Shown: positions 41,682-62,752 of the stretch, one piece after another
Numbering within the stretch: position 1 is the stretch's first letter
Layout: each line of letters starts with the position of its first letter
Source of the DNA: Nitrospira japonica
Lineage (GTDB): Bacteria > Nitrospirota > Thermodesulfovibrionia > UBA6902
Direction: 5' to 3'
Length of the DNA: 64,000 bases
NCBI GenBank assembly: GCA_020723105.1
Contig: DYJL01000001.1
Coordinates: 124,001 to 188,000 of the forward strand
Program-made: the position numbers and the translations under genes
Notes under the pieces: generated by a model
The model's input: only the letters and a program-made list of their open reading frames with translations
The model's database searches: none
Told to the model about the DNA's origin: nothing

Positions 41682-42695
41682 ATGCAATTGCCAAGCAATA
41701 TGATACACAAGGCATTCAGTGAAATAGATGTAAATGAAAATGGCAATGAATTAGAAGTATCCTATTTCACTATGGTCGGACTTTCTGGTGAGAAGTCAGA
41801 GGGCTGGAAGACCGGAATTGCAATTGATGCAAGTGTTTCCATGATGGGTGAATTTGGGAAAGAACTTCGTGGTACGGTGCCGGAAGATGTCAAAAAAAAA
41901 TATATGAAGAAGAAATGGATTCAGACACATCAACATGACGGAAAGACTGTTCACTACTGGAAAGAAGAAGCATTTAAAGACGCCATAAGTAATGGCTATC
42001 TGCAGCCTACTGATAATATTGTTGAGTCAGAAGCAAGAAAGTTCAGTTCTTATATAGCGGACAGCCTGGATTTAGACGGCCAGACGGATATTGTATATTG
42101 GGCATGTAACAATGATAGTGGCTTAGAAGAAATAGGCGTATTGGATGCTCAGCACTGCAAAACTTTAGAGTTTAAAGGTCCTAAATGTAACTTTGGAACT
42201 GTTACAAATCTGCTACCTGTTGTCAAACATTTCGAACAGAAGTATCGTTTGGCCAAAAGGGGATTATTTGTTTTTATAACTGACGGTCAATTAAATGACT
42301 TAAAAGAATTGAAAAACTATACAATTAGTCTTGCAAAGGATATCGCGTCAGGTAAAAGGGAATTTTTTAAAGCTGTGTTAATAGGGATAGGGAATGAAAT
42401 AGATGAGAATCAGATGGTGGAATTAGATGATATTGATACAGGAACTGACGTGGATATTTGGGATCACAAGATTGCACACGAAATGAAAGATATGATAGAA
42501 ATTTTTGCAGAGTTGGTTGATGAAAACACGATTATTGCTCCTTTTGGGACAGTTTATGACAGTGACGGTAATGTTGTAAAAAAATTTAACGATGGTGTGC
42601 CGGCAAAGGGACATTTTATTCTCCCTAAAGATAGTACTTATTTTATATTAGAAGTCGAGGGACAATCAATAAAACAAATAATAAGGAGGTCATAA
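41682..42695 (+). CDS. vWA-domain protein, type A paralogue
   Basis: 337 residues, aligned with the 39503 protein from IDASVSM (MIDAS) through VTNLLPVVKHF, FITDGQLNDL, VDIWDHKIAHEM and NTIIAPFGTVYDSDGNV. It has an extra Lys-rich insert after MIDAS (about residues 60-100) and lacks the poly-G loop. Function is likely the same scaffold or adaptor role. AAGGAGG precedes the ATG. The next gene starts 2 nt after its stop. Confidence 0.82.
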   Translation: MQLPSNMIHKAFSEIDVNENGNELEVSYFTMVGLSGEKSEGWKTGIAIDASVSMMGEFGKELRGTVPEDVKKKYMKKKWIQTHQHDGKTVHYWKEEAFKDAISNGYLQPTDNIVESEARKFSSYIADSLDLDGQTDIVYWACNNDSGLEEIGVLDAQHCKTLEFKGPKCNFGTVTNLLPVVKHFEQKYRLAKRGLFVFITDGQLNDLKELKNYTISLAKDIASGKREFFKAVLIGIGNEIDENQMVELDDIDTGTDVDIWDHKIAHEMKDMIEIFAELVDENTIIAPFGTVYDSDGNVVKKFNDGVPAKGHFILPKDSTYFILEVEGQSIKQIIRRS

Positions 42696-42696
42696 C

Positions 42697-43188
42697 ATGA
42701 GTAATGAAAAAATTGTAATGGGAGGTCCGACTAGTCCTACTCCTGGTTCAAGTAAAGGTAAATTGATTTGGGTTGTGATTATATTGTTGATTGTAGTTGC
42801 AGGGATTATGTATATGGTATCAGGGAAAGATGAAACGCATGAAGCGAAAGTTAAAGAAAGAGATACAGCTTCAGTTGAAACAACAAAGACGATAGAAATT
42901 CCAGCTATGGCGGAAAAGCCAGTTGAGAAGGAACAAAAAGAGCCCATGGCTGTTAAAGACGCTTCAGTCGCTCCTGAACCTGAGACTGCGAAAAAGGTCA
43001 CAGAAAGGCCTACCATTGTTGCTGCAAACACATATGTTGTTAAAGATGGTGACTGTTTATGGAATATTGCTGCGAAATCTGAAGTATACGGTAATTCTTT
43101 CCGCTGGAGTGATATTTATGAGGCAAACAAGGATCAAATTAAAGATCCAAATTTAATACATCCTAATCAATCATTAAAGATACCATAG
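42697..43188 (+). CDS. membrane-anchored LysM protein
   Basis: 163 residues: a short cytoplasmic N-terminus with IVMGGP, one membrane helix (about 24-43), a Glu/Lys/Thr-rich linker and a C-terminal LysM domain (TYVVKDGDCLWNIAAKS, NPNLIHPNQSLKIP-type ending). LysM binds peptidoglycan, so this protein should tie the cytoplasmic vWA proteins to the wall. Its N-terminus matches the OmpA-domain protein at 55444. AAGGAGG precedes the ATG. Confidence 0.9.
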   Translation: MSNEKIVMGGPTSPTPGSSKGKLIWVVIILLIVVAGIMYMVSGKDETHEAKVKERDTASVETTKTIEIPAMAEKPVEKEQKEPMAVKDASVAPEPETAKKVTERPTIVAANTYVVKDGDCLWNIAAKSEVYGNSFRWSDIYEANKDQIKDPNLIHPNQSLKIP

Positions 43189-43216
43189 TATCGGAATATT
43201 AAGGAGGAGAGAAATT

Positions 43217-43849
43217 ATGAGACGATTACCAGTTTATCTATTATTGGATGTTTCCGGTTCAATGACTGGCGAACCAATTGAAGCAGTAAGAAATGGTTTA
43301 CAAATGATGGTTTCAGCACTCCGGGGTGAACCACAGGCGTTGGAAACCGCATATTTAAGCGTTATAACATTCGAATCTTCTGCCCATCAGGTTGTTCCTC
43401 TTACAGATCTTGCATCGTTTCAGGAGCCCCAATTAAACGCAGGAGGTACAACTGCATTAGGCGAAGCCTTAACGTTATTGTGTAACAAAATTGATACAGA
43501 GGTTAATAAAGGCAGCGCTGAAATGAAGGGGGACTGGAAACCTCTTGTCTTTATAATGACAGATGGTAACCCAACGGACAACTGGAATAGAGGTGCCGAT
43601 GAGCTAAAGAAGAGAAAGTTGACAGTTGTTGCCTGTGCCGCTGGTTTTGATGCTGACACAACAGTATTAAAACAAATAACAGGCAATGTTGTTCAACTGC
43701 AATCTGCCAGTTCTGGAGACTTGGCAGCTTTCTTTAAGTGGGTAACGGCATCTATTACTACAGGTAGTCAGAAAGTAGAAACGGGAGGTGAAATAGGAGA
43801 TATGGACCAGCTTCCTCCTCCACCGCCTGAAATCAATGTTGTGCCTTAA
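43217..43849 (+). CDS. TerY-like vWA protein without zinc ribbon
   Basis: 210 residues, nearly only a vWA domain. MIDAS is complete: DVSGS (residue 9), T of GGTTALGEA, and MTDGNPTDN. It ends in a proline-rich tail LPPPPPEINVVP that recurs in several paralogues here. Strong GGAGGAG. Close sister of the ATT-start gene at 54332. Confidence 0.88.
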   Translation: MRRLPVYLLLDVSGSMTGEPIEAVRNGLQMMVSALRGEPQALETAYLSVITFESSAHQVVPLTDLASFQEPQLNAGGTTALGEALTLLCNKIDTEVNKGSAEMKGDWKPLVFIMTDGNPTDNWNRGADELKKRKLTVVACAAGFDADTTVLKQITGNVVQLQSASSGDLAAFFKWVTASITTGSQKVETGGEIGDMDQLPPPPPEINVVP

Positions 43850-43871
43850 TACGATTTGATGAGGAGGATCT

Positions 43872-44876
43872 ATGCGTAGGTTACCAGTTTTTTTCCTCAT
43901 TGATGTTTCAGAGTCAATGGTTGGAGAACCCATAAGGAATGTCCATAATGGTATTCAAATGATTATGGGAAACCTTAAAAGTAATCCAATGGCGCTTGAA
44001 AGTGTTTACGTTTCCGTTATAGTATTTGCTGGAAAAGCTAAAACACTTGTTCCACTTAAATATATATTGGACTTTGAACTTCCTGAGTTGCCTGTTGGAG
44101 GCGGTACGGCGCTTGGAAATGCCATGGACTTCTTAATGGATGAGATTAAGAAACAGGTGCAAAAGACTACAACAGATATGAAGGGCGACTGGAAGCCTAT
44201 TGTTTTTCTATTAACAGATGGCGCTCCCACTGACCAGTGTACCTCAGCCATTAAACGCTGGAAATTAGAATTTAAAGGCAAGGCAACTCTCATTACCATA
44301 GCAATGGCTGAAACTGTAGACTTGGATATATTGAGGGAGTTCACAGATAATGTTCTTCAATTTAAGGGAACTAACTCAAAAGACTACAAGGACTTTTTTC
44401 AATGGATATCAGCTTCAATAGAAACAACGAGTAAAAATATTATTTCAGGCATGGAGGAAGAAATAAATACTCTGCACATAGATAATGCTCTAATTGAGAT
44501 CGATAATAAAGAAAAGAATTCATCATTTGAAACTGATGAAAAGTTCACGATTCTTTTGTCTAGATGCCAGAAGATTAAGAAACTTTATCTTATAAAATAT
44601 GAAAAACAGAATACAGGCAATTATGAGTATGAAGGCTCTTATTCTGTAAGCGAAGATTATTTTGAACTGACTGAGGGACACGAGCAAAAGGTCCAATCCG
44701 ATAAACTCTTTGGAATGCCTTTTTGTCCATACTGCAAGAGTTCGTTCTGGGGTATGTGTGTATGTGGGAAGGTGCTGTGCTTAAAAGCAGAAGATCCATA
44801 TAATACATGCCCATGGTGCGGGCAGACTTGTTCTTACCAAGTTGGTATTTTTAATGTAAATAAAGCACAGGGGTAA
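43872..44876 (+). CDS. TerY-like vWA protein with TerY-C zinc ribbon
   Basis: 334 residues. vWA with DVSES, the Thr of GGGTALG and LTDGAPTDQ, then a linker and the TerY-C module with CPYC, CVC, CLKAE and CPWC. The stop lies 3 nt before the PP2C start, so TerY-C, phosphatase and kinase follow in the order known for TerY-P triads. GAGGAGG upstream. Confidence 0.88.
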   Translation: MRRLPVFFLIDVSESMVGEPIRNVHNGIQMIMGNLKSNPMALESVYVSVIVFAGKAKTLVPLKYILDFELPELPVGGGTALGNAMDFLMDEIKKQVQKTTTDMKGDWKPIVFLLTDGAPTDQCTSAIKRWKLEFKGKATLITIAMAETVDLDILREFTDNVLQFKGTNSKDYKDFFQWISASIETTSKNIISGMEEEINTLHIDNALIEIDNKEKNSSFETDEKFTILLSRCQKIKKLYLIKYEKQNTGNYEYEGSYSVSEDYFELTEGHEQKVQSDKLFGMPFCPYCKSSFWGMCVCGKVLCLKAEDPYNTCPWCGQTCSYQVGIFNVNKAQG

Positions 44877-44879
44877 ATA

Positions 44880-46676
44880 ATGAATCAAAGGCATATTAAT
44901 TTACTGAAAATTATTAAGAGTTTTGGGAAAAAAAATAATGATATTGGCTTACTTAATGATAATGAGATAATTCAAATATGGGAAAAAGCACCAGATAGCT
45001 TTATCAAAATATCAGGACCAGTTCTTAAACCATTGAAGGAATATTATTTAAAAGCAATAGAAAACAGTGGATTCCCACACGAAATGAAGATAGCTCAGGA
45101 GATTTATGATTATTGGTATAAATTTTATATAGGTATAATTAAAGAGCAACGGATGAATCAAGCTAATAAATCAAAGGTTACATCATCTCAGGATCAACAT
45201 AAGCCCAATAAAACTCCTACAAATTATGGGAGGCAAATGAATGAACAAAAGTCACACCTTGAAGTTAATGTTGTAGAAGCTCCTGAAATGACATCAGCAT
45301 CGAAATCTCATGTTGTTGAAAATTCAAATAAAGCTGTAAAAGATACGCAGGCTATTGAAAAGAAGGAACCTCCTTTAAATATCCCAGCACCTACATCAAT
45401 ACAACTAGCTCCAAATCAAGCTCCCAATTTACGTCCCACTCAAAATAAACCAGTCGAGCCAATAATTAAACCATTACAGATTTCCATAAAGAATGGCAAT
45501 GTTGGCCAGGAATACGATCACCAGATTTCAATTAATGAAGACAGTATAGATAATGACAAGGAAATTGAATACAGCATTCTTGGACTGCCACCTGTTGGTG
45601 GACTTATGTTTGATTCTAAAACTCGTTCCATAACAGGTACACCTGAAAAAGCAGGTGAATATATTATTCATATTATAAGGCGGAACAATTCAACAGGTGA
45701 TAAAAGAGAGGCTGATTTTAAATTTATAATTAACCCTGACCCTCGTTCTTTATGGAAAGTTCTTGAGCCTGAAGATATGACTGATTATAAGAAACATGAA
45801 GATTGTCAAAGGATAGATCTGAAAACGAGAAGAATTATTGCAGCAAGCAAGAGAGGACGCTCACATGAGCATGCAGCAAAATATCGTGACGATGACTTTT
45901 ATATTGATAGCCTTAATACTGGATGGAGCATTATTGCTGTCGGGGATGGTGCAGGCTCTGCAGAGTTATCAAGAGTAGGTTCAAAGATTGCATGTGATGC
46001 TGTTGTATCTATCATTAGGGACAAGTTGAATGAATTAAATGGTAAAGTATTTGAGGATAAACTAATTAAATATATAAAGACAGGTAAAGACGAACCTATA
46101 CGCTTGGATCTTTATAATATTATTGGCAGCGCTGCATTTGAAGCAGCAAAAAAAATAAAGCAGGAAGCAAGAGATAGAAATTATATACCTCAAAAAGGAT
46201 CTCCAGAAGATGCCTTTGCAACAACCCTACTGATAGCGATACATAAGGAGTTTGATGTTGGCCACTTTTTTGCTGGTTTTTGGATTGGTGACGGTGGCTT
46301 GGCAATATATAATGAAAATGATTCAGTTAATCTTCTTGGCATTCCTGACAGCGGTGAATTTGGAGGTCAGACAAGATTTTTAACAACACCAAATATCATT
46401 ACAAATAATGAAGAACTATCAAAACGTATACGATTTGCTTTAGTTGATAATTTTACTGCTCTTTTTGTTATTACCGATGGAGTTACTGATCCAAAATTTG
46501 AAACTGATAATAATTTAATAAACATAGACTACTGGAATAATCTGTGGAAGGAGTTAATTGATCCTAAACAGGCGGATATTCTTTCAGATGAAGAGCCGGA
46601 AAAGAAGCTTCTTAATTGGCTGAATTTCTGGTCCCCGGGGAACCATGATGATAGAACAATTGCTATATATTATTAG
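44880..46676 (+). CDS. PP2C-family phosphatase with Ig-like (He_PIG) domain
   Basis: 598 residues, no signal peptide. Residues 1-90 are a helical N-terminal region, then a Pro/Lys/Asn-rich linker, a putative Ig-like domain around 200-285 (LGLPPVGGLMFDSKTRSITG, TPEKAGEYII) and a PP2C catalytic domain from about 320. The catalytic Asp-containing motifs are VGDGAGSAELSRVGS, ATTLLIA, GFWIGDGGLAIY and TDGVTD, with HDDRTIAI at the end. Should dephosphorylate targets of the adjacent kinases. The Ig-like domain in a cytoplasmic phosphatase is unusual. Confidence 0.88.
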   Translation: MNQRHINLLKIIKSFGKKNNDIGLLNDNEIIQIWEKAPDSFIKISGPVLKPLKEYYLKAIENSGFPHEMKIAQEIYDYWYKFYIGIIKEQRMNQANKSKVTSSQDQHKPNKTPTNYGRQMNEQKSHLEVNVVEAPEMTSASKSHVVENSNKAVKDTQAIEKKEPPLNIPAPTSIQLAPNQAPNLRPTQNKPVEPIIKPLQISIKNGNVGQEYDHQISINEDSIDNDKEIEYSILGLPPVGGLMFDSKTRSITGTPEKAGEYIIHIIRRNNSTGDKREADFKFIINPDPRSLWKVLEPEDMTDYKKHEDCQRIDLKTRRIIAASKRGRSHEHAAKYRDDDFYIDSLNTGWSIIAVGDGAGSAELSRVGSKIACDAVVSIIRDKLNELNGKVFEDKLIKYIKTGKDEPIRLDLYNIIGSAAFEAAKKIKQEARDRNYIPQKGSPEDAFATTLLIAIHKEFDVGHFFAGFWIGDGGLAIYNENDSVNLLGIPDSGEFGGQTRFLTTPNIITNNEELSKRIRFALVDNFTALFVITDGVTDPKFETDNNLINIDYWNNLWKELIDPKQADILSDEEPEKKLLNWLNFWSPGNHDDRTIAIYY

Positions 46677-46693
46677 CTGGCTGGAGATAAAAA

Positions 46694-48157
46694 ATGGCCG
46701 GAATTAAAAAAATTACAACAACAACTGGAGAAATAATAGAATACGTGGACGATATTATTGGTGCGGGAGGAATGAAGGATGTATATTTTACTCCTGACAA
46801 GAAAAATGTTGTTGCTTTCTATAGAAAGCCTTTGGATTATAATTCTAAGGAAAGGCTCGAAAATATTATAGGTAAATATAACCCTACAACTGATCCCTCG
46901 ATAGGTCTTTTTTGGGAAGATCTGTATTGCTGGCCCAAGAAAATAGTTATAAATGGTGACAAATGTGGAATTGTGGCGCCTGCATATAAAAAACATTTCT
47001 TTTTTGAAGCTGGCTTTAATAAAACCAAGGAAAAAAATGGAAGATGGTTCTCGTCACCTAAACTGAGGAAAATGCTTGATCCTACCGAAAGAGGTAATTG
47101 GAACAGTTACTTGCGTATAGCTATTCTTGTCAGCAGGGCTGTAGGAAGAATGCATGCTGCAGGGTTGGCTCACTCAGACCTTTCTTACAATAATGTACTC
47201 ATAGATCCGAAAGGCGGGCATGCTGCTATCATCGATATTGATAGTTTAGTCGTTCCGGATAAATATCCTCCTGAGGTTCTTGGAACGCCTGATTTTATCG
47301 CACCTGAAGTTCTACAAAATTTGAAATATCCCTTTAAAGATAAAAGGAGGATATATCCTTCAATAAGGACAGACCGTTATGCTCTTGCTGTTCTTATTTA
47401 TATGTATTTGCTCTGCCGGCATCCGTTAAGGGGAGGAAAAAATCATGATCTTGATCCTGCCATTGACGAACGTCTTATGATGGGTGAAAAGGCTTTATTT
47501 ATAGAACATCCCGCAGATAAGAGCAACAGACCTAAAGAGAAACCCCCTGCATATATGCCTTGGATAGATGTTGAAAAGATACCATACACTATTTGTGGCC
47601 CATACCTGAAGGAGCTTTTTGATAAAGTTTTTATTGATGGTTTACATAATCCGAATAATAGACCCTATGCTGGTGCCTGGGAAGAAGCTCTCATAAAAAC
47701 AGTTGACTTGCTTCAACCATGCAAAGGACCTTCATGTGAACAAAAATGGTTTGTTTTTGATAATCGGTTGAAGCCCAGATGTCCTTTCTGCGGTTGGGAA
47801 TTTAAAGGACAATTGCCTATATTGAATCTCTATTCAATGAGAAAAAAAGGCAATTACGGACCAGATAATCATAGACTTATGGTATATCACAATCAATATC
47901 TCTATCCTTGGCATGCGAATCGCAAGATAATCCCTAATGAGAAATTGTCACAGTCTGATAAAAAGCCTGTTGGCTATTTTGTTTTGCATAATGGCAAGTG
48001 GGTTTTGGTTAATCAGAACTTGCCGAATATGAAGGATATTACAGAAAACAAGGCCGTCCCTAACAATTCAATGGTTGAGTTAAAAGATGGTAAACAGATT
48101 CTTCTTTCAAATGAAGAAGGCGGGAGGCTCATTTTAGTTCAGATGTTAAATGCTTAA
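46694..48157 (+). CDS. Ser/Thr kinase of TerY-P type, zinc ribbon C-terminal
   Basis: 487 residues. The N-lobe has IIGAGGMKDVYF as glycine loop and VVAFYRK as the Lys strand. The catalytic loop is HSDLSYNNV (His at ~160, HSD in place of HRD), and the metal-binding segment IIDIDSLVV stands for DFG, as usual in this kinase group, followed by GTPDFIAPEVL. A CPFCGWEF zinc ribbon (CEQKW partner) and a C-terminal FHA-like or strand-rich domain (VLHNGKWVLVNQNL) follow. Paired with the PP2C gene. Confidence 0.88.
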   Translation: MAGIKKITTTTGEIIEYVDDIIGAGGMKDVYFTPDKKNVVAFYRKPLDYNSKERLENIIGKYNPTTDPSIGLFWEDLYCWPKKIVINGDKCGIVAPAYKKHFFFEAGFNKTKEKNGRWFSSPKLRKMLDPTERGNWNSYLRIAILVSRAVGRMHAAGLAHSDLSYNNVLIDPKGGHAAIIDIDSLVVPDKYPPEVLGTPDFIAPEVLQNLKYPFKDKRRIYPSIRTDRYALAVLIYMYLLCRHPLRGGKNHDLDPAIDERLMMGEKALFIEHPADKSNRPKEKPPAYMPWIDVEKIPYTICGPYLKELFDKVFIDGLHNPNNRPYAGAWEEALIKTVDLLQPCKGPSCEQKWFVFDNRLKPRCPFCGWEFKGQLPILNLYSMRKKGNYGPDNHRLMVYHNQYLYPWHANRKIIPNEKLSQSDKKPVGYFVLHNGKWVLVNQNLPNMKDITENKAVPNNSMVELKDGKQILLSNEEGGRLILVQMLNA

Positions 48158-48340
48158 CAATATATTTTGCTTGATTATAAAGTCAGAAGCCATCATGCTT
48201 GTGAAGACAGAAATCCGTATAAGTTCTAGCTCATTCAAGTTCTGATTGATAGCTGTTATGTTATTTGTTCCTTGATGTAGCAGTCTAACTAATAGATGAT
48301 CTCGAGTGATTAAATATGGCTGAACCGATAATATCTCCTT

Positions 48341-49513
48341 ATGCAACACAATAATTATAAAACCGTTAAAGCAACAAATGGTGACATGATAGAGTATGAA
48401 ATAAAAAGTTTCGATTTAGGAATGAAGGATGTGCACTTTTCCTCAGACAACAAACATGTTGTTGCGTTTTATAGAACACGCTCTGACTATTTAAGAAAAA
48501 GGCTTGAAAATCTGATTTACAAATATAATCCTACTTCTCATTCTGAGGCAGGGACCTATTGGGAAAACCTCTTTTTATGGCCTACTCACATTATTGATGA
48601 TAAAAGATTGGGTTATGTTGTCCCAGTTTATCCAAAGCACTTCTTTTTTACTGCAGGATTTAATAGAAATAAGGAAAAAAATGGAAGGTGGTTCTCGTCA
48701 CCTAAACTGAGAAAAATGCTTGACCCTTCTGAAAGAGGTGATTGGAGAGGTTATATGAATATATGCATTCTGATTAGTAGAGCTATACGCAGAATGCATT
48801 CTATAGGACTTACTCACTCAGACCTTTCTTACAATAATGTACTCATAGATCCAAAGGGTGGACATGCTTGTATTTTAAACTTCGATGAGTTTATTGTGCC
48901 TGGAGAACATCCACTGGAGGTTATTGGAACGCCTGATTTTATCGCTCCTGAAGTTTTACAAACTATGAAATATCCTTTTAAAGATATAAGGAGGAAATAT
49001 CCTTCAATAAGGACAGACCGTTATGCTCTTGCTGTACTAAATTATGAATTACTTCTCTGCCGCCATCCGTTAAGGGGAGGAAAAAAACATGATCTTGATC
49101 CTGCCATAGACGAACGTCTTATGATGGGTGAAAGGGCTTTATTTATAGAACATCCCGCAGATACGAGCAACAGACCTGAAGAGAAACCCCCTGCATATAT
49201 GCCTTGGATAGATGTTGAAAAGATACCATACACTATTTGTGGCCCATACCTGAAGGAGCTTTTTGATAAAGTTTTTATTGATGGTTTACATAATCCACAT
49301 GAGAGACCCTATGCTGATGCGTGGGAAGAGGCATTGATTAAAACGGTTGACTTGCTTCAGCCTTGTGGCGATTCATCCTGCGAGCAGAAGTGGTTTCTGT
49401 TCGATAACAGTACCAAGCCAAAGTGTCCTTTCTGCGGCTGGGAATTCACAGGACAATTGCCAATTGAAGGATCTTACAAAGAAGAATCCTGTTCGGATGA
49501 ACTTTATCTTTGA
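48341..49513 (+). CDS. second Ser/Thr kinase, C-terminally truncated paralogue
   Basis: 390 residues, very close to the kinase at 46694; 118 consecutive bases are identical (47535-47652 and 49179-49296). Kinase motifs HSDLSYNNV and GTPDFIAPEVL are kept, but the DFG-equivalent IIDIDSL has become ILNFDEF, losing the first Asp, and the glycine loop is shortened (FDLGMKDVHF). The zinc ribbon (CEQKW, CPFCGWEF) is present and the C-terminal domain is gone, leaving a remnant at 49531. No Shine-Dalgarno. Possibly inactive or regulatory. Confidence 0.82.
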   Translation: MQHNNYKTVKATNGDMIEYEIKSFDLGMKDVHFSSDNKHVVAFYRTRSDYLRKRLENLIYKYNPTSHSEAGTYWENLFLWPTHIIDDKRLGYVVPVYPKHFFFTAGFNRNKEKNGRWFSSPKLRKMLDPSERGDWRGYMNICILISRAIRRMHSIGLTHSDLSYNNVLIDPKGGHACILNFDEFIVPGEHPLEVIGTPDFIAPEVLQTMKYPFKDIRRKYPSIRTDRYALAVLNYELLLCRHPLRGGKKHDLDPAIDERLMMGERALFIEHPADTSNRPEEKPPAYMPWIDVEKIPYTICGPYLKELFDKVFIDGLHNPHERPYADAWEEALIKTVDLLQPCGDSSCEQKWFLFDNSTKPKCPFCGWEFTGQLPIEGSYKEESCSDELYL

Positions 49514-49530
49514 GATAAAGGAATAAACAG

Positions 49531-49593
49531 ATGCTGCTTTCCGATGAAGAAGGTGGAAGGCTTATGTTAGTACAGATAGCGAATACAGATTAA
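49531..49593 (+). pseudogene. remnant of the kinase C-terminal domain
   Basis: This 20-codon stretch reads LLSDEEGGRLMLVQIANTD, matching ILLSNEEGGRLILVQMLNA at the end of the first kinase. The bases for the ~110 residues in between are missing, so an internal deletion shortened kinase 2. Confidence 0.8.
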
Positions 49594-49611
49594 AATTGAG
49601 TCAACTACTAA

Positions 49612-50235
49612 ATGAAAAAGTTGCCTGTTTATATTCTTTTGGAGACATGCGGAGGCTTAACTGGAGGACCTCAAAGATGTGTACAAAATGCTTTGCATAT
49701 GATGACGCTATTTTTAAAGGGAGACCAGCATGCAGTTAACACAGTTTATTTGAGTATTATTTCTTATAATTCTTATGCTGAGCAAGTTGTTCCATTAACA
49801 GATTTATCTTCTTTCGATGTGCCTAAGATTATCGGGCATGGCACTATAGCATTGGGAGAGGCAATTAAACTATTGTATGAAAAAATAGATACAGAGATCA
49901 ATGACAATTATTGTGCACCTCTTGTATTCATAGTAACATATCGTGGAGTATCGACTGACAATTGGCAGCCTGCGGCCATTGAACTAATGAAAAGAAAGTA
50001 TTTTGCTATTACTTTCTTTGCTGGATTCCAAGGTGATCCGGACGTATTCAGACATTATACAGATATGATTATTAGGATTCAGTATGCTAATGCTGATCTT
50101 TACAATGCTTTATTTTATTGGATAACTGAAATAATCATTGATTATAGCAAAAACTTAAGCCTGGAGTTAGAAGAAGTTGTAGATCTTCATAAATATTTAC
50201 CACCAAACGAATTAGAGATAATAAGTATTAGGTAA
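49612..50235 (+). CDS. TerY-like protein with destroyed MIDAS
   Basis: 207 residues that align along their full length with the TerY at 43217 (KLPVYILLE, VYLSIISYNSYAEQVVPLTDLSSF, STDNWQPAA). The metal site is lost: DVSGSM has become ETCGGL and MTDGNP has become VTYRGV. The frame is intact, so it may serve as a non-metal-binding partner rather than being a pseudogene. The tail YLPPNELEI is a degenerate form of the LPPPP motif. No Shine-Dalgarno. Confidence 0.75.
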   Translation: MKKLPVYILLETCGGLTGGPQRCVQNALHMMTLFLKGDQHAVNTVYLSIISYNSYAEQVVPLTDLSSFDVPKIIGHGTIALGEAIKLLYEKIDTEINDNYCAPLVFIVTYRGVSTDNWQPAAIELMKRKYFAITFFAGFQGDPDVFRHYTDMIIRIQYANADLYNALFYWITEIIIDYSKNLSLELEEVVDLHKYLPPNELEIISIR

Positions 50236-50245
50236 ATAAATATAT

Positions 50246-52501
50246 ATGACAAAAGAAAGCCTGCAATATAAAATAGATAGTTCAAAAAATGGCGATGTCC
50301 TTGAAATACCATATGGGGAGTTTCATGAATCGATTATCATTAAAAAGCCAATAACAATAAAAGGTGATCGCTATCCTATTGCAATTGCAGGTGGTTCTCC
50401 TACTGTAACAATACAAAGCAAAGATGTTGTGCTTGACAATGTTCATATTATAAATTCTGAAGATGATGGTGTCTGCCTTTCTGTACAAAAAGATTGTAAG
50501 CCAAATTTCAAGGATGTTTATTTAAAAGGCAAAGTGCAGGGATTAGAAGATGAAGAAGGTGAATGGGAGATACCAAATAGTTTGGAATTGTCAATAATTC
50601 CTGAAAAAACAACTATAAATAAATTTATTATATCTACGCCAGTTCCCATAAAAATATATTCATCAAACCTTGATGATATTACCTGTCATCCAGATAAACT
50701 CCAGACTGGAATTAACGAGGTTGAAATAAACATAAAAGAAATAAGACGAGGACTTCTGATTCATGGTGATCTGGTTATTGAAACATTAAGAAATAAGTTA
50801 ATGAGAAAGATTGCTGTTAGTGGTAATACGATTAATGAACACGTGGATACAAGTACGTTTGACGGTAAATTAATATGGGAATGTGAATCCAACGAAATTG
50901 GCATCAATACTGTATTTCTAAAAAATATACCTACTGGTAGGCTGGGTAACCCATACGAATTCATTGTAAATATTGATGACGGAGATAATTGTGATATATC
51001 AGTCGATAATCTTCCTGATGGACTTAGATTTAATTCTACAATTGCGCCACATAAAATACAGGGAATTCCTAGGGTTTATGGAAGTTTTAATTTGAAATGG
51101 ATGTTCAAGATTAATGAAAAAGAATACGAACGTACTGCCAAATTAGTTGTTGAGGATAAGATTCCGCTTAAAATTGAAAAGTTGCCTGATCCTATTATTA
51201 TAGATGAAAACAAACCAGTTAATATTCAATGCAAAGTTGTCAGCAGTAACTCTTCTGATATTACATATCAATTAACAGACAAATTACCAAGGGGACTAAT
51301 CTTTGATGATAAGACAGGAATAATTAATGGTCTTATTGCTGATCATGGTAAATATAAAGTCGCTCTCAAAATTAGTGATGGAGCGAGTGATTTGGTTTGT
51401 AACCTAAACATATTTGTCTTACCAGAAAAGCCTTTAAAAGTAAATATGGAAAAGATATATAGGGTTTATCAAAAACGAGATTTAGTAATCCCTATTGTCA
51501 TAGAAAATGCAGAAAAATTGTCACCTAAGGTAAAGCTTAAAAACCAACCTGACAAGATATATTTTGATGATACCTCCTATCATATTAAAGGAATTCTTAA
51601 TGATGTAAAAGATTATAAATTTGCTATAGAGGTTATTGATACTTATAATCGATCGATAACGGAATCCTTATGTATAAAGTGCATTGACGAACCCCAAATT
51701 GTATGGAATACTCCTGACACAATTGAAGTTGCGGGAATAAGAGGAACCAATGCCGATTGTCAAATTATGGCCACAATAATTGGTAATCAAAAGGCACAAT
51801 TAAAATATTCTTGCATCAGTAACATGCCCCATAATATTCAATTACATGAAAACGGCTTCTTGAACATAAAAATACTCTACAACAAGTCTGAAAAAGTAAT
51901 GATTAAAGCAGAATATGAAGTTTTTTTCAGTGAAAAAGAATTTAAGGTAGAGACCAAAATCAAAAAGGAATTAAAAAAATCATTGCCTGGTACGGTATTT
52001 AATGAATACGATCAGAATCAATTGCCCGAATATTCTTTCAAAGATCAGCTGAAAGAGGGGAAAGTCAGTCAACCATATAAGGACACTTGCTTAACTAACA
52101 GTAAGGGAAATAATAAAGATATAAATATTATATTGACAGGTTTGCCAAATGGTCTTAAATATAATGCTGTATTAAATGTAATCGAGGGGATTCCACAAGA
52201 GGATGGTATTTTTACAATATCAATTGTTGACAATAATAAATTAATAACCAAAAAAATATTGCTTAAGATAAGTAAAGAATTATTTGAAAAGATGTCCAAA
52301 CCAAAAGATAAAGACAATACCACTGATATGAAAAACAGAGGAAAAGATACCAGCCTTGGTTCGGCTTTTAAAACATCCTATGAAACAAAAGCAGATGATT
52401 TGAATAAACATGTTAGTAAATCTCCTGAATCGCCATCCAAAAAGGAAAAAAAAGAAAATCAACTCGGAGGCGCTTTTGGTAATTATAAGAAGACTGAGTG
52501 A
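50246..52501 (+). CDS. beta-helix plus multiple Ig-like domain protein
   Basis: 751 residues, no signal peptide and no membrane helix. Residues ~1-90 read like a right-handed beta-helix start (SKNGDVLEIPYGEFHESIII, PITIKGDRYPI). From ~235 on there are several putative Ig/cadherin-like domains of the He_PIG kind: NLPDGLRFNS, KLPRGLIFDDKTGIINGL and GLPNGLKYNAVLNVIEGIP. The last ~70 residues are low-complexity Lys/Ser-rich with LGSAFKTSYE and LGGAFGNYKK. The same Ig-like type is in the PP2C at 44880, suggesting pairing. Function unknown. Confidence 0.7.
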   Translation: MTKESLQYKIDSSKNGDVLEIPYGEFHESIIIKKPITIKGDRYPIAIAGGSPTVTIQSKDVVLDNVHIINSEDDGVCLSVQKDCKPNFKDVYLKGKVQGLEDEEGEWEIPNSLELSIIPEKTTINKFIISTPVPIKIYSSNLDDITCHPDKLQTGINEVEINIKEIRRGLLIHGDLVIETLRNKLMRKIAVSGNTINEHVDTSTFDGKLIWECESNEIGINTVFLKNIPTGRLGNPYEFIVNIDDGDNCDISVDNLPDGLRFNSTIAPHKIQGIPRVYGSFNLKWMFKINEKEYERTAKLVVEDKIPLKIEKLPDPIIIDENKPVNIQCKVVSSNSSDITYQLTDKLPRGLIFDDKTGIINGLIADHGKYKVALKISDGASDLVCNLNIFVLPEKPLKVNMEKIYRVYQKRDLVIPIVIENAEKLSPKVKLKNQPDKIYFDDTSYHIKGILNDVKDYKFAIEVIDTYNRSITESLCIKCIDEPQIVWNTPDTIEVAGIRGTNADCQIMATIIGNQKAQLKYSCISNMPHNIQLHENGFLNIKILYNKSEKVMIKAEYEVFFSEKEFKVETKIKKELKKSLPGTVFNEYDQNQLPEYSFKDQLKEGKVSQPYKDTCLTNSKGNNKDINIILTGLPNGLKYNAVLNVIEGIPQEDGIFTISIVDNNKLITKKILLKISKELFEKMSKPKDKDNTTDMKNRGKDTSLGSAFKTSYETKADDLNKHVSKSPESPSKKEKKENQLGGAFGNYKKTE

Positions 52502-52516
52502 TATGTAAGGTTTCTT

Positions 52517-52996
52517 ATGGGTTATATTCAAAACAACCTCATTCCCGGTGAAAAGATTTTGCATTCAGCAAAGTTACACTGGATAGTATTCTTAAGGCCT
52601 GCATTGTTAATTATACTACTGTTAGGGGTCTTCAGTAGCGAATCCTTTGCTTATAGCAGTCAAATGTTTTTATCAAGGAACATTATCGGGTTTGTAAAAA
52701 ATGTATTATTAGTAATTACTCTATATTCATCGATCGTTTCTATTGTAGATTATGTTACATCAGAATTCGGTGTTACTAACAAAAGAGTTATTGCCAAAAT
52801 TGGCTTTATTCAAAGGAATTCAGTCGAGATATTATTAAAAAAAGTTGAGGGTATTCAGGTAAAGCAGAGTATATTAGCACGTATGCTTGGGTATGGTACT
52901 ATAATTATTACCGGCACAGGTGGGCTCCATGATCCATTTCACAAAATATCTAATCCTTTATTGTTTCGCAGAAAAGTCCAGGAACAGATACCATAA
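52517..52996 (+). CDS. bacterial PH-domain (bPH2) membrane protein
   Basis: 159 residues: IPGEKILHSAKLHWIVF, two membrane segments (about 29-45 and 60-85), then the PH-like strand block TSEFGVTNKRVIAKIGFIQRN, ILLKKVEGIQVKQSILARMLGYGTIIITGTGG, typical of YdbS/YdbT-like proteins. Acts at the inner membrane; a lipid-reading or scaffold role in the island is inference. Confidence 0.85.
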   Translation: MGYIQNNLIPGEKILHSAKLHWIVFLRPALLIILLLGVFSSESFAYSSQMFLSRNIIGFVKNVLLVITLYSSIVSIVDYVTSEFGVTNKRVIAKIGFIQRNSVEILLKKVEGIQVKQSILARMLGYGTIIITGTGGLHDPFHKISNPLLFRRKVQEQIP

Positions 52997-53011
52997 ATTA
53001 CCGATTGTAAT

Positions 53012-53365
53012 ATGGTTACACTTGAGAAATATCTTTTCGCTCATAGTACAATGAGGTATAATTGGGCTTTATTACAAAAAGGTCAGATTCCGTTAAGGCC
53101 CAATGGTACTCATTATGCAAGGGCTCCCTTTAATAGGCATTATTGTTCATCTATATTCATATGGCATGATGGAGCATTACCATGGAGAGATAGGACTGTA
53201 GTTATAGATCCTTGCTGGAGAATTGCTACTCAATGCCATAAGGCAATAATAATCCTGAAAGAAATGGGAATTTGTTTATATGACATAGGATATTATTTTA
53301 CAACGCATATACATTGGTCCCTTATTAGGCGAGTTGTTGAACGGCTATTCAAACGCTCCTTATAG
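53012..53365 (+). pseudogene. fragment resembling a metallo-beta-lactamase-fold N-terminus
   Basis: 117 residues. RTVVIDPCWRIATQCH, EMGICLYDIGYYFTTHIH align with the start of MBL-fold proteins (strand-IDPG, then DIxxxxxTHxHxDH), but the second Asp-His pair is absent (THIHWSLI) and the frame stops soon after. I read it as a truncated remnant; an intact short protein cannot be excluded. Confidence 0.4.
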
Positions 53366-53478
53366 TGATCTATGTCAGGATGTGGCATCTACAATTGAAC
53401 AAAGGATCTATTCATTTACAGCAGACTTTAATAACTAATTATGCTGACTAAATGGAACTATAAGATCACGATATAAAG

Positions 53479-54288
53479 ATGTCGTTACCAAATATATATT
53501 ATGAATGTAGCGGTTCTCATAATAGAGAAAAAGAGACTATTGTATTTCTTCACGGTAAACTGTCTGGTAGGGGAGTGGAACGACCTGCACTTCATTGTGC
53601 TCCCTTTTTGCGCGAAATTGTTTGTAAATCAAACCTTCGTGTAGTTATGCTGGAATATCATTTGCTTTTTAAAGATATTCTTGATGAGCCATTAAGCATG
53701 AAGCTTGGTAGTATTTCAGGTCAATTATATGAATCAGTTGCGGAAATTATGGCTAAGCATGATAAGGTAACCTTTATGGCATATTCTTTCGGATGTTTTA
53801 TGCTTGCAAAGTTGTTAAAAACGAAATTAAATAATGTAGATAAAATAATACTTATTGCGCCTGTAATGCCAAAATCTATAATAGAGGTCCAATCACCAAT
53901 TATTTCTGAATTGCCATCTATTATTATCTGGGGTACACACGACAATTATGCAAAGAAAGTTGAGTTGTTAAGATTGTATTTTCCTAAGGCAAGTTATGCC
54001 CCTATTGAGGGCGGGAATCACCTATATTATCTTATGCCTAGCCCCATGGACAGGTTTGATGAAAATCCTGCTACGATTTCTCGTGAATATCAGTGCAAAT
54101 ATACAGCAGAAAAAATTACTAATTATTTAAATATCAAAGAGAATGATGAATGTATGAAATATAGAATCTTGGAAAAAACATTAGATAAATGTGTTGATCT
54201 TACAACAATATATTATAGTAAGTTGAGCGAGGCACAGTTGCTTTATAAGAGATACGATCAGCAAAATTTTAATGGCGTATTAAATTGA
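53479..54288 (+). CDS. alpha/beta hydrolase
   Basis: 269 residues. TIVFLHGKLSG is the oxyanion-hole strand, MAYSFGCFM the nucleophile elbow (Ser ~102), IIIWGTHDN offers the acid and EGGNHLYY the His, a complete triad. The C-terminal ~50 residues are a helical extension (YSKLSEAQLLYKRYD). The substrate is unknown; family members include esterases and thioesterases. Confidence 0.82.
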   Translation: MSLPNIYYECSGSHNREKETIVFLHGKLSGRGVERPALHCAPFLREIVCKSNLRVVMLEYHLLFKDILDEPLSMKLGSISGQLYESVAEIMAKHDKVTFMAYSFGCFMLAKLLKTKLNNVDKIILIAPVMPKSIIEVQSPIISELPSIIIWGTHDNYAKKVELLRLYFPKASYAPIEGGNHLYYLMPSPMDRFDENPATISREYQCKYTAEKITNYLNIKENDECMKYRILEKTLDKCVDLTTIYYSKLSEAQLLYKRYDQQNFNGVLN

Positions 54289-54331
54289 GGACAATTAATA
54301 CAAGTCCAAGCAATTAACTAAGGAGGAATAT

Positions 54332-55087
54332 ATTCGTCGTCTTCCCATATATATATTATGTGATTGCTCCGGGTCAATGGCTGGCGAACCTCTTGACGCA
54401 GTAAGAAGAGGTTTGCAGATTATAGTTTCAGCGGTCAGAAGTGAACCTCAGGCATTGGAAATGGTGTATTTAAGCATTATTACATTCGATTCATCTGCTC
54501 AGCAGGTAGTCCCTCTTACTAATCTTGCAGTATTTGAAGTACCTCTGCTAAAAACAGTCAGCACAGCTAAACACTTAGGAGAAGCCTTAACATTATTTTG
54601 TAATAAAATTGATTCAGAGGTTAACAAGGGCAGTGCTGAAATAAAGGGGGACTGGAAGCCACTTTTTTTTATAATGATGGATGGTAATCCAACGGATAAC
54701 TGGCAACAAGGTGCCGATGAAATAATAAAGAGAAAGCTTACAGTTATTGCCTGTGCCGCTGGTTTTGATGCTGATACAAATATATTGAAACAAATAACTG
54801 ACAACGTTGTTCATTTGAATTCCGCGGGTTTTGCGGACATTAGAGCTTTTTTTAAATGGGGAGATTTTTCTATTGTTGTAGATAAAAAGTGTAACTGTGA
54901 TAAATGTGGAAAAATTCACTCACGTTATTCCTCAAAATGTGAGAACTGTGGAGCTCGTTTATGTGAAGAATGTGCTCCATCATGGAATTCTATAAACTTA
55001 AAGCATGAGCGAATATGTCCCCTTTGTGGATTCTATGAAAAACTTGAACTGCCACCCCCGCCTGAAGAGATTAATTTAATAATATGA
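54332..55087 (+). CDS. TerY-like vWA protein with inserted zinc domain and ATT start
   Basis: 251 residues counted from an ATT codon at 54332. The frame reads I-RRLPIYILCDCSGSMAGEP, the same opening as other TerY proteins here (MRRLPVYLLLDVSGSM), with AGGAGG 5 nt upstream. The nearest in-frame ATG (54377) lies inside the MIDAS and would destroy it. MIDAS: DCSGS, T of STAKHLG region, MMDGNPTD (Thr to Met change). A cysteine-rich zinc domain (CNCDKC, CENC, CEEC, CPLC) is inserted before the tail LPPPPEEIN. Confidence 0.75.
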   Translation: MRRLPIYILCDCSGSMAGEPLDAVRRGLQIIVSAVRSEPQALEMVYLSIITFDSSAQQVVPLTNLAVFEVPLLKTVSTAKHLGEALTLFCNKIDSEVNKGSAEIKGDWKPLFFIMMDGNPTDNWQQGADEIIKRKLTVIACAAGFDADTNILKQITDNVVHLNSAGFADIRAFFKWGDFSIVVDKKCNCDKCGKIHSRYSSKCENCGARLCEECAPSWNSINLKHERICPLCGFYEKLELPPPPEEINLII

Positions 55088-55103
55088 TAAAGCACAATAA
55101 ATC

Positions 55104-55362
55104 ATGAAACGAGGAGTAAAGTATCCATCGATAGGTAAATTACCAGCACCTTTAAAACCATTTGCTTCTGTTATTGTTGAAAAAGACAATACAGATAATG
55201 AGTTACAGTTTATTGCCACGTACTCATGCCTAGAGAAAAATGAGAAATATACTATATAGAATACAACTGAAATCGACCTCTACTGACTTTAGACTTGAAG
55301 TCCCGGGGCGACTATCGATTGAACAGGATTTAACAGAAGCACTTGCTTTGCTTCAACGATAA
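55104..55362 (+). pseudogene. vWA type A gene with the vWA core deleted
   Basis: Bases 55104-55259 encode a 51-residue frame beginning VKYPSIGKLPAPLKPFASVI, matching VKYPSDKLPKPVKPYASI of the 39503 protein. Bases 55261-55362, one frame over, encode RLEVPGRLSIEQDLTEALAL, matching KLEVPGQTAIEQDLSEAIAL at its end. About 220 residues with the whole MIDAS are missing. Confidence 0.85.
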
Positions 55363-55443
55363 GGATAAAGAGGTAGAGGATTAAGAAAATTACTAATAAA
55401 ATCAAATGAATATAAAACTGATAATAAAAGGAGCAAAACAACA

Positions 55444-55959
55444 ATGGACAGTGATAAAAGTATAATTGTTATGGGAGACCCTCCTCCTAGTCAAAAGAAA
55501 TCGAAATTATATTGGATAATTGGCACTATTTGTGTCTTGCTCGTATTTATTTCTTCTATATTCCTCTCAAAAGATGACGCAAAGAAATCTGAAATCGCAA
55601 AAGAAACTGTTTCACTTCATGCAGTTCCTGAGATCGCAGTTCTCTTTAATTTTGATTCTAGTGAACTAAGTGAGACTGCAAAAACAATACTTCGCGAATG
55701 GGTGATAACTAATCGTAATGCCATAAATAAAGGAGTATTGCATATAGAAGGACATGCAGATGATGTTGGAGGTGAAAATTATAACGTAATATTATCAAAA
55801 AAGCGTTCCGAATCGGTTTACAAATACATATCACATGATTTCGGATTGGAATTGAGCAACGTGAGGCAAAAGGGATTTGGCGCGACGCATCCGATTTCAG
55901 AAGATGATAGTGATAAAGGTAAAAACCGAAGGGTTGAATTATTTCTGACGTCTGAATAA
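55444..55959 (+). CDS. membrane-anchored OmpA-domain protein
   Basis: 171 residues: short cytoplasmic start with IIVMGDPPP, one membrane helix (about 24-41) and a C-terminal OmpA/MotB-type domain (VLFNFDSSELSETAKTIL, IEGHADDVGGENYNVILSKKRSESV, GFGATHPISEDDSDKGKNRRVEL). This domain binds peptidoglycan. The N-terminal anchor matches the LysM protein at 42697, so both probably do the same job with different wall-binding ends. AAAGGAGC upstream. Confidence 0.9.
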   Translation: MDSDKSIIVMGDPPPSQKKSKLYWIIGTICVLLVFISSIFLSKDDAKKSEIAKETVSLHAVPEIAVLFNFDSSELSETAKTILREWVITNRNAINKGVLHIEGHADDVGGENYNVILSKKRSESVYKYISHDFGLELSNVRQKGFGATHPISEDDSDKGKNRRVELFLTSE

Positions 55960-57052: not shown

Positions 57053-58849
57053 ATGGATGATCATGATTGTATGACGTTCTTGCTGATATATAAGGGAAAG
57101 CAGTTAATTAAAGATTTCAAAATTACTGCTGATGATAAAGTGCTTACCATTGGTCTGCTCCGAAGTAATGATATATACCTTCCAGATGATAAACACTTTG
57201 TTTCACGAATCCACGCTGCTATTATACGCTCTGATTTATTAGGAAAGAAAAACTCCTATTTTATTCGTGACCTTGGTAGTACCCATGGTACAAAGATAGG
57301 AAAAACTTATATTCGCAAGAAGATATTGCATGATGGCGATAAAATTGATATATGCGATTATACCCTGGTTTTTAAACAATCTACGTTGCCAGAATATACT
57401 TGTAAGGGACTTTCTTTGGACGAAATATACGGCAAACTATCCTCTGAAGAAAAATCTAAGCAGGCTACTATAAGGCGTCCTGAAAGACAAATTCATATGG
57501 GACAGTTAAATCAGGAGAAAAAAGAATTTGTTTCAAATATAACTAGGTCCGGACTTGGAGCAGATTTTTTGGAAAATCCTTCAGTATTCATGAATCATCT
57601 TACTAAATTACTAAGGGTGGAGAAATATGTTGTCGGTTATAGTAAAGATGGAAGGACATATCTTACATATCAAAGTGGATTTGAAAGAGAGTCTATCTAC
57701 TGCAGTGAGGAATTTTTAACCATTTTGTGGGAAAAAGGACCTATTAAACAAGAAGCTGCTCTTTGGATCCCATTGCCTGATAATGGATTTCTTGCTTTAT
57801 TCCGATCTATTCCCCCAGCTTTTGAGAATGAGGACTTGGACTTTATGTGTTATGTCTACAGTCGACTTATGACCCTGGGAAACCAGGTCAACGAGTTATA
57901 TGAACTAACTTCTTGGCCTTCCAATATGGTTGGTATTCCAAATTTGAAAAAGCAATGTATTAAACTTGCACAAATAGAAAATATGGAAAACAACGATGTA
58001 CTTATTATGGGCGAAACGGGCACAGGCAAAGAGGTGATAGCTCGATTTATTCATGAAAACTCTGGCAAAAAACATGGTCCTTTCGTAACTGTTAATTGTT
58101 CTTCTTTACCAAGAGAATTGGCTTATGGTGAACTTTTTGGGTATGAGAAAGGCGCATTTACTGGCGCAACCACAAAAAAGCAAGGGTATTTTGAAATTGC
58201 CGATGGTGGAACGCTCTTTTTAGATGAGATAGGTGATGTTCCAGAAAATGTTCAGGTTGCGTTGCTCACAGCAATGCAGCAAAAAGAGATATTACATTTG
58301 GGTAGTGAAAAAACAACTCCGATTAATGTTCGTATTTTGGCTGCAACAGACAGAGATGTCGAGCAGAAAATGCAAGATGATACATTTCGACGAGCATTGT
58401 ATGAACGTTTTGCCCATACAATCATCGTCCCACCTCTCAGAGAGAGAAGAGAAGATATAACGTTGTTAGCGCATTACTTTCTTGATAAATATTCCAAGAA
58501 TACCCGTGCTATCTCTCGGGAGGCACTGCAATATTTACGGGAATATGACTGGCCGGGTAATGTACGGGAACTTCAAAATATTATAAAAAATACTATTCTT
58601 TCAGGAAAAGAGATTATATTTTCGTGGGATTTACCAAAGAAACTAATTCATTTTACAAGGGTTCAGCAAGTTGAGGATAGAATTCAGAAGGAGACAACCT
58701 TAAAGGATAAGCAAATTGCAGAGATTATCAAAGTATTAAATGAAACAAGAGGCAATGTGACTCAAGCCGCAAGAATACTCTCTGTACCGCGGTCTACTTT
58801 ATATCATAAAGTAAATGTGCATAAAATAGATCTGTCTGTATTCAAGTGA
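57053..58849 (+). CDS. FHA-domain sigma-54 transcription activator
   Basis: 598 residues. FHA domain at 1-110 ([31 protein letters not shown]), which reads phosphothreonine; a middle region (~140-285) possibly GAF-like; then the AAA+ activator with GETGTGKE (Walker A, ~320), GAFTGA (~367, contacts sigma-54), TLFLDEIGD (Walker B) and RERREDI; last a Fis-type HTH ([20 protein letters not shown]). Kinases upstream could phosphorylate its partners. GGAGAAT precedes the ATG. Confidence 0.93.
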
Positions 58850-62736: not shown

Positions 62737-62752
62737 TGGCACGGGAGTTGCT
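62737..62752 (+). promoter_or_regulatory. sigma-54 (-24/-12) promoter, near-perfect
   Basis: TGGCACGGGAGTTGCT matches TGGCACG-N4-TTGCW at every defined position. It points at the small membrane protein gene at 62887. It is the second sigma-54 site around the island that encodes an FHA sigma-54 activator. Confidence 0.85.

Follow-up and report, generated by a model that had tools for sequence, protein, structure and literature searches.

The original description of the TerY-P triad was reportedly given by Anantharaman et al. in 2012. This triad consists of a TerY protein with a von Willebrand factor A (vWA) domain, a PP2C phosphatase and a Ser/Thr kinase (PMC11090510). The ter operon of Klebsiella has been reported to act in the tolerance of envelope stress (PMC9933665), and the TerC protein of E. 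coli has been reported to interact with OmpA (PMC12054061). In the present work, we have analysed a stretch of 64,000 nucleotides from Nitrospira japonica (GenBank assembly GCA_020723105.1, contig DYJL01000001.1, positions 124,001 to 188,000; hereafter the window), which carries a TerY-P operon together with the genes of two small predicted membrane proteins, one with a LysM and one with an OmpA domain, that we call stems. The central observations are the architecture of the stems, their two-fold association with TerF-type genes and, in another phylum, the fusion of terF2 homologues to a transmembrane helix and an OmpA domain. We consider it probable, with moderate confidence, that the stems are inner-membrane wall tethers which hold a pair of TerF-type vWA proteins, and through it the TerY-P complex, at the membrane by the cell wall.

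All three parts of the triad are present in the window, viz. vWA proteins whose TerY_C domains score above the PF15616 cut-off (terY1 and terY2), a PP2C phosphatase, and a Ser/Thr kinase with C-terminal Cys pairs (kinase 1) that is approximately 57% identical, over 97% of its length, to the kinases of Klebsiella ter plasmids and that matched 2359 plasmid records. The same triad genes are shared with the enterobacterial plasmid ter operon (terZABCDEF). Unlike the triad as described, the window operon adds a pair of TerF-like vWA proteins and wall-binding membrane proteins, and an enterobacterial ter locus that we compared (L074) differs from the window in having no match to a LysM or OmpA gene. 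No match to the TerA, TerB, TerC, TerD, TerE or TerZ families was found in the 35 window proteins scanned, the search being confined to the window, and the TerC-, TerB- and TerD-family genes of a ter operon proper do not stand alongside the triad there. Gene neighbourhoods of FtsZl1 with vWA, OmpA and kinase genes, for which a function in membrane remodelling has been proposed (PMC2875224), are alike in bringing together genes for vWA proteins, peptidoglycan-binding OmpA proteins and Ser/Thr kinases. They differ from the window in that the vWA proteins here are of TerF or TerY type and the anchors are single-helix stems; no FtsZ-like or GTPase gene that would place the window among them was found in the 35 proteins. 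Another comparison is provided by membrane-tethered vWA force transducers, in which the vWA domain is periplasmic and TolQ-like motors adjoin (PMC12204202). As in these proteins, a vWA domain is here linked to a single inner-membrane helix, but it lies N-terminal to the helix, and would thus be cytosolic, with OmpA outside. Anchors of the MotB, Pal and TssL type combine a helix or lipid anchor, a linker and a peptidoglycan-binding OmpA domain; the stems differ from them in that no motor or secretion partner is present among the genes scanned and the predicted cytosolic partner is the vWA pair. Among the open-licence PMC papers listed by our searches, which do not include the 2012 Ter survey and any earlier mention that it may hold, we saw no description of LysM or OmpA anchors with TerF or TerY proteins.

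The stem proteins and the genes that they follow

Direct reading of the LysM stem gives the N-terminus MSNEKIVMGGP...SSKGK, followed by a hydrophobic stretch from residue 23, and that of the OmpA stem gives MDSDKSIIVMGDP...KKSK, followed by a hydrophobic stretch from residue 22. Both proteins thus begin with a predicted cytosolic peptide of 21–22 residues containing IVMG-[GD]-P, and their helices start one residue apart. Because Lys stands ahead of the helix and Asp or Glu directly behind it in both stems, an N-in/C-out topology fits and is the one that we infer; no signal-peptide cleavage motif or lipobox was seen by reading in either protein. The OmpA domain scores 60.1 bits against PF00691 (cut-off 27.2), and on reading it retains D106/D107 and R121, at what we take to be the spacing of the diaminopimelate-binding Asp and Arg of peptidoglycan-binding OmpA domains. 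The OmpA and LysM domains of the stems are putative peptidoglycan binders.

The matches of this OmpA domain to the PADLOC ZorB and the NCBIfam MotB and TssL profiles raise the question of whether the OmpA stem could be part of a stator, as in MotB, ZorB or TssL, and act in a motor or another trans-envelope force element. We regard this as very improbable: the matches are confined to residues 46–171 and all lie far below the NCBIfam cut-offs, no full-length match was obtained, no partner gene of the MotA, TolQ or ZorA kind is present among the island genes scanned, and the helix holds no acidic residue by reading.

According to the first-pass annotation of this DNA, the two proteins share an N-terminal stem made up of the IVMG-[GD]-P peptide, the helix and a charged linker. 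A local alignment of the first approximately 63 residues of both stems scores 67, a score that was reached by 25 of 20,000 shuffles which kept the make-up of each segment; this and the following frequencies belong to a comparison that was chosen after the likeness had been noticed, and they carry no correction for that choice. For the part ahead of the helix alone the score was reached by 37 of 20,000 such shuffles, and for the part behind the helix by 8,123 of 20,000, so that the linkers are alike in composition only. When the whole genome was searched with the LysM protein, its OmpA counterpart ranked third among the matches (E 0.07, residues 6–63 aligned). The 5′ ends of the two genes, from about 30 bases upstream, also align at the DNA level; 1 of 2000 simple shuffles attained the score of this alignment, a weak hint of common descent.

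The LysM stem gene is part of a compact operon in the order terF1, terY1, terF2, LysM stem, vwa3, terY2, PP2C and kinase 1, with intergenic gaps of 60, 124, 1, 28, 22, 3 and 17 bp; 1 bp thus separates the stem gene from terF2 upstream, and 28 bp separate it from vwa3 downstream. Behind kinase 1 lies a second, worn gene set, which consists of kinase 2, vwa4, a He_PIG protein ("pig"), vwa5, a decayed copy of terF1 and the intact OmpA stem gene (Table 1). The remains of the terF1 copy were found when the window was searched by tblastn with terF1 as query (58% over 38 amino acids, E 9e-8; 65% over 31 amino acids, E 3e-7). Since terF2 precedes the LysM stem gene and the decayed terF1 copy precedes the OmpA stem gene, both anchors follow TerF-type genes.

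The reading frame of vwa5 is open upstream of its listed ATG (54377) as far as an ATT behind AAGGAGG (54332–54379), where vwa3 has an ATG. Its start seems to be a rare start codon or a lost start; a frameshift was ruled out by codon reading, the frame being continuous and opening at the ATT behind this strong ribosome-binding site. The pig gene also stands beside the TerY-P kinase at other loci (L095:7745–9307, L096:5993–7201 and, as a remnant, L078:6520–7431), which makes it a recurrent partner of the triad.

Table 1. Features of the window discussed in the text.
Feature	Position	Strand	Characteristics
Alpha-2-macroglobulin gene, then transglycosylase/transpeptidase penicillin-binding protein gene	11530–19478		
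Mutator-type transposase	37395–38639	−	Adjoins the start of the cluster; fits a mobile origin
terF1, TerF/copine-like vWA	39503–40447	+	Metal-ion-dependent adhesion site (MIDAS) DxSxS, motif in alignment A2; 40% identical to terF2 over 220 amino acids; no Pfam family at 0.01
terY1, vWA and TerY_C metal-binding domain	40508–41557	+	PF00092 E 2e-16; PF15616 E 6e-18
terF2, TerF/copine-like vWA	41682–42695	+	PF10138 (vWA-TerF-like) E 7.5e-5, below cut-off
LysM stem protein	42697–43188	+	163 amino acids; IVMGGP 6–11, helix from 23, linker, LysM 113–163; PF01476 E 4e-9
vwa3, short TerY-type vWA	43217–43849	+	C-terminal LPPPPPEINVVP tail; PF00092 E 3.5e-17
terY2, vWA and TerY_C	43872–44876	+	PF15616 E 1e-22
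PP2C phosphatase	44880–46676	+	N-terminal He_PIG-like stretch; PF13672 E 1e-34
Kinase 1, Ser/Thr	46694–48157	+	C-terminal Cys-pair (zinc-ribbon-like) stretch; PF00069 E 1e-10
Kinase 2, paralogous to kinase 1 but shorter	48341–49513	+	73% identical to kinase 1
Scrap downstream of kinase 2	49525–49584		Matches kinase 1 residues 467–486; remnant of the lost end
vwa4, divergent vWA	49612–50235	+	PF00092 E 1.3e-3 (under the cut-off); by reading, MIDAS seems degenerate
pig, NosD-like N-terminus and He_PIG Ig-like repeats	50246–52501	+	PF05345 E 3e-13; TIGR04247 partial
vwa5, TerY-type vWA, zinc-finger-like tail	54332–55087	+	PF00092 E 4e-6; 69% identical to vwa3 over 171 amino acids
Decayed terF1 copy	55104–55356	+	Pieces 55104–55217 (N-terminal) and 55264–55356 (C-terminal); middle missing, frames differ
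OmpA stem protein	55444–55959	+	171 amino acids; IIVMGDP peptide, helix from 22, linker, OmpA 67–162; PF00691 E 3e-16
FHA and sigma-54 activator	57053–58849	+	PF00498, PF00158; possible regulator, from its position only
HEAT-repeat protein run	59079–60131		Downstream of the cluster; likewise at L079:3335–10148
vWA–partial TerY_C–vWA protein	60980–62521	+	PF00092, PF15616
Presumed sigma-54 −24/−12 site	62737–62752	+	Exact match to what we take to be the consensus, just behind the preceding gene

TerF2 homologues and their fusion to OmpA domains

The terF2 query matched 28 of the 291 genomes of one cyanobacterial class, and from these we have read 29 homologues (L134–L161 and L095, the latter a TerY-P locus of the genome G651), which together with the window protein make up an alignment of 30 rows (A1). 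The terF2 protein scores 23.4 bits against PF10138, below the family cut-off of 29.4, and this family matches 2 of the 30 rows at 0.001; hence "TerF-like" is used here as a label of resemblance. An AlphaFold2 model of terF2 (confidence score, pLDDT, 85) matches vWA folds in the PDB, e.g., 6k88 and 6pyo, with the MIDAS domain of RGLG1 (6k88) at rank 2 (E 1.7e-5) behind the pilus protein PitA at rank 1. In A1 the MIDAS pattern DxSxS...T...D is kept, D49, S51, S53 and D201 being invariant and T175 nearly so, and the modelled fold of terF2 is that of a vWA domain with a MIDAS.

An OmpA domain is recognised by Pfam in 21 of the 30 rows, i.e., in 21 of the 29 homologues, and all 21 of these fusions consist of the vWA domain, a helix near residue 420–450, a linker and a terminal OmpA domain. 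A helix is predicted in 26 of the 29 homologues, five of which have a short tail in place of the OmpA domain (the helix of L161 is weak). The part that is fused in one phylum thus appears to be a neighbouring gene in the window, a likeness of architecture that does not imply orthology of the OmpA ends. A terF1 homologue adjoins terF2 in all of the loci read except L149, which is a short contig. The fusions are 56–100% identical to each other and fall within one tree cluster of 24 rows (support 86/94). Because the fused loci are without triad matches in the stretches fetched, the fusion speaks for a TerF protein with an anchor and not directly for TerY-P with an anchor, and in these sequences the anchors track the TerF pair and not TerY-P triads in general. 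At L158 and L159, where terF1 and terF2 are of the helix-less type, genes for a trypsin-like protease and a DnaK-like protein follow by eye.

Distribution of the island, its parts and its motifs

The island is rare in its own class: TerY_C was found in 1 of 230 genomes and terF2 in 1 of 229, in each case the window's own, so that there are no close relatives upon which its conservation could be judged. Of 295 genomes of the phylum, 2 had a match to the kinase, viz. the window's own and G135. The latter, 6 Mb in size and from the same class, holds a broken set (L078) in which a PP2C tail, the C-terminal half of a kinase and the N-terminus of pig lie among response-regulator-like genes. With the LysM stem as query, 84,980 species genomes yielded 35 loci, in all of which the match lies chiefly in the LysM end. 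None of these loci has relatives of the window's vWA, PP2C or kinase genes nearby (E 1e-5), and four have a relative resembling the FHA–sigma-54 gene. Plasmid searches with the stems had generic LysM and OmpA proteins among the matches listed. Neither terF1 nor terF2 matched any plasmid, and a fused TerF2–OmpA protein matched plasmids through its OmpA end only; terF2 had no phage match, and neither terF2 nor kinase 1 had relatives on viral contigs.

From searches with the kinase we read 13 further TerY-P loci, on three plasmids and ten genome stretches. A vwa3 homologue is present in most of them, the terF pair is missing in 12 of the 13, and a stem-like LysM or OmpA gene is present in none. 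A single OmpA match, at L097, was rejected as a stem; by eye it is a MotB-like open reading frame (ORF) among flagellar genes. A Moraxella "TonB family protein" encoded beside the Moraxella kinase gene was likewise rejected, since it reads as a lipoprotein-type protein without the motif. The exception with respect to the terF pair is L095, which nearly has the window order (terF1, terF2, terY1, an extra ORF, vwa3, PP2C, kinase, pig). At 13301–13804, the extra ORF has a CAP domain and no signal, and starts at a TTG or GTG that overlaps or abuts the terY1 stop. Among the 87 genomes of the family of G651, such an operon was found in G651 itself only.

At the DNA level, the window contains the IVMG[GD]P pattern at two places, both in a stem gene, whereas none of 100 window shuffles contains it. 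In 101 genomes (its own and 100 relatives) the pattern occurs 10 times in 8 genomes, and only the two window copies lie near an N-terminus and are followed by a membrane helix. A stem-like regular expression found no match in L037–L071, L072–L074, L078–L080 or L094–L103, and "VMG" is present in none of the 29 terF2 homologues. Since no further N-terminal copy was found, the motif as a docking site has the support of only two proteins, both from a single genome; the fused forms would need no such motif, and therefore its absence from them does not refute docking. As a docking motif for the vWA pair, IVMG is a conjecture. Other tails are far better conserved: in most of the loci read, the C-termini of the short vWA proteins of TerY type resemble LPPPPP-E-[VI]-N-V-V, and those of the TerY_C proteins resemble [FL]-[DN]-V-x-R-x-x-G (43790–43846 in vwa3 and 44840–44873 in terY2; also L072–L074, L094, L095 and L099–L102). 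These LPPPPPE[VI]NVV and FDVxRxxG tails are better candidates for assembly motifs than IVMG, and are likely to serve in assembly.

These results change what had been claimed of the locus from its sequence. The proposal of IVMG as a conserved docking motif finds no support in the homologues found, and neither does the interchangeability of the anchors find support, as the OmpA stem gene belongs to a partly decayed second copy and the corresponding slot at L095, the one colinear operon found, is filled by the CAP-domain ORF. The claim that a Ter-type system is anchored to the wall is retained for a vWA system within this TerY-P operon, where the spacing of the LysM stem gene behind terF2, the decayed terF1 copy ahead of the OmpA stem gene and the cyanobacterial fusions all bear upon it; as a general property of Ter-type systems it finds no support in the 13 other loci.

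Much of this distribution would also be expected if the stems were two ordinary and unrelated small envelope proteins in an island rich in vWA genes, their N-terminal likeness being short, partly compositional and noticed afterwards. The cytosolic peptide alone stands out from shuffles, the stem occurs in no other of the 101 genomes, the rarity of the island leaves conservation without close relatives, and the OmpA segment is partly decayed. This explanation does not account for the helix and OmpA domain fused in cis to terF2 homologues, for the position of both stem genes behind a TerF-type gene, or for the failure of window shuffles to produce the motif pattern, and we consider it unlikely.

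A possible role at the cell envelope

If the stems are wall tethers, as we propose, each would run from a cytosolic peptide through a single helix and a periplasmic linker to a peptidoglycan-binding domain. The outer LysM or OmpA domain would hold peptidoglycan and the inner peptide would hold the terF1/terF2 vWA pair, through which the vWA–phosphatase–kinase complex of TerY-P may be kept at the cytoplasmic membrane beside the wall. The fused form would be the same link made covalent, and the cyanobacterial fusion suggests that signalling machinery may be physically tied to the cell wall. As a guess, the state of the wall or damage to it would then be read by the kinase/phosphatase switch, or the switch may merely be positioned at the envelope; such a purpose would agree with the role in envelope stress reported for the Klebsiella ter operon (PMC9933665).

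Several observations weigh against the tether proposal. The likeness of the linkers is one of composition only, the OmpA stem gene sits in a decaying segment, and the IVMG motif is absent from all of the homologues found. At L095 the slot of the stem gene holds the CAP-domain ORF, which has no membrane helix and is not a stem, and terF2 there is likewise without a helix, as it is at L158 and L159 (3 of the 29 homologues); an OmpA domain is lacking in 8 of the 29. The 21 fusions, which sit in one cluster, probably go back to one ancestral fusion, and no relative of the kinase, PP2C or vwa3 was found at E 1e-5 in the 28 stretches L134–L161, several of which end at contig ends.

The same arrangement may also be viewed as a receptor for the state of the wall, in which the binding of peptidoglycan or muropeptides outside would alter the contact between stem and vWA and thereby switch the cytosolic kinase and phosphatase, the stems being sensors. 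PASTA kinases provide the wall-sensing comparison for this possibility, from which the stems differ by being separate chains. In the operon, the gene of a putative wall-binder of the membrane is coupled to genes of a kinase and a PP2C that both seem intact, the possible FHA–sigma-54 regulator lies downstream, and ter genes are reported to act in envelope-stress tolerance downstream of damage (PMC9933665). The present data do not separate sensing from anchoring, the fused cyanobacterial loci have no kinase in the stretches fetched, and we regard a receptor of this kind as possible but rather unlikely. A bolder form, which we hold to be similarly doubtful, is an inside-out wall-adhesion receptor in which cytosolic MIDAS proteins of the TerF1/TerF2 type would be held by a transmembrane wall anchor, or be fused with one, and would feed wall integrity into the TerY-P switch. 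Its logic would resemble that of integrins and PASTA kinases, but its components would be those of Ter systems, and LysM, OmpA and possibly CAP domains would be its alternative outer ends.

The molecular job of the Ter and TerY-P systems is unsettled, though they are common on the plasmids of pathogens, as the plasmid records matched by the kinase attest. If the tether proposal is true, a link between TerF-type vWA proteins and peptidoglycan would provide a testable reason for the envelope-stress phenotype and a cellular place in which to look for it, and the cyanobacterial fusion makes the link between vWA and wall testable in one polypeptide.

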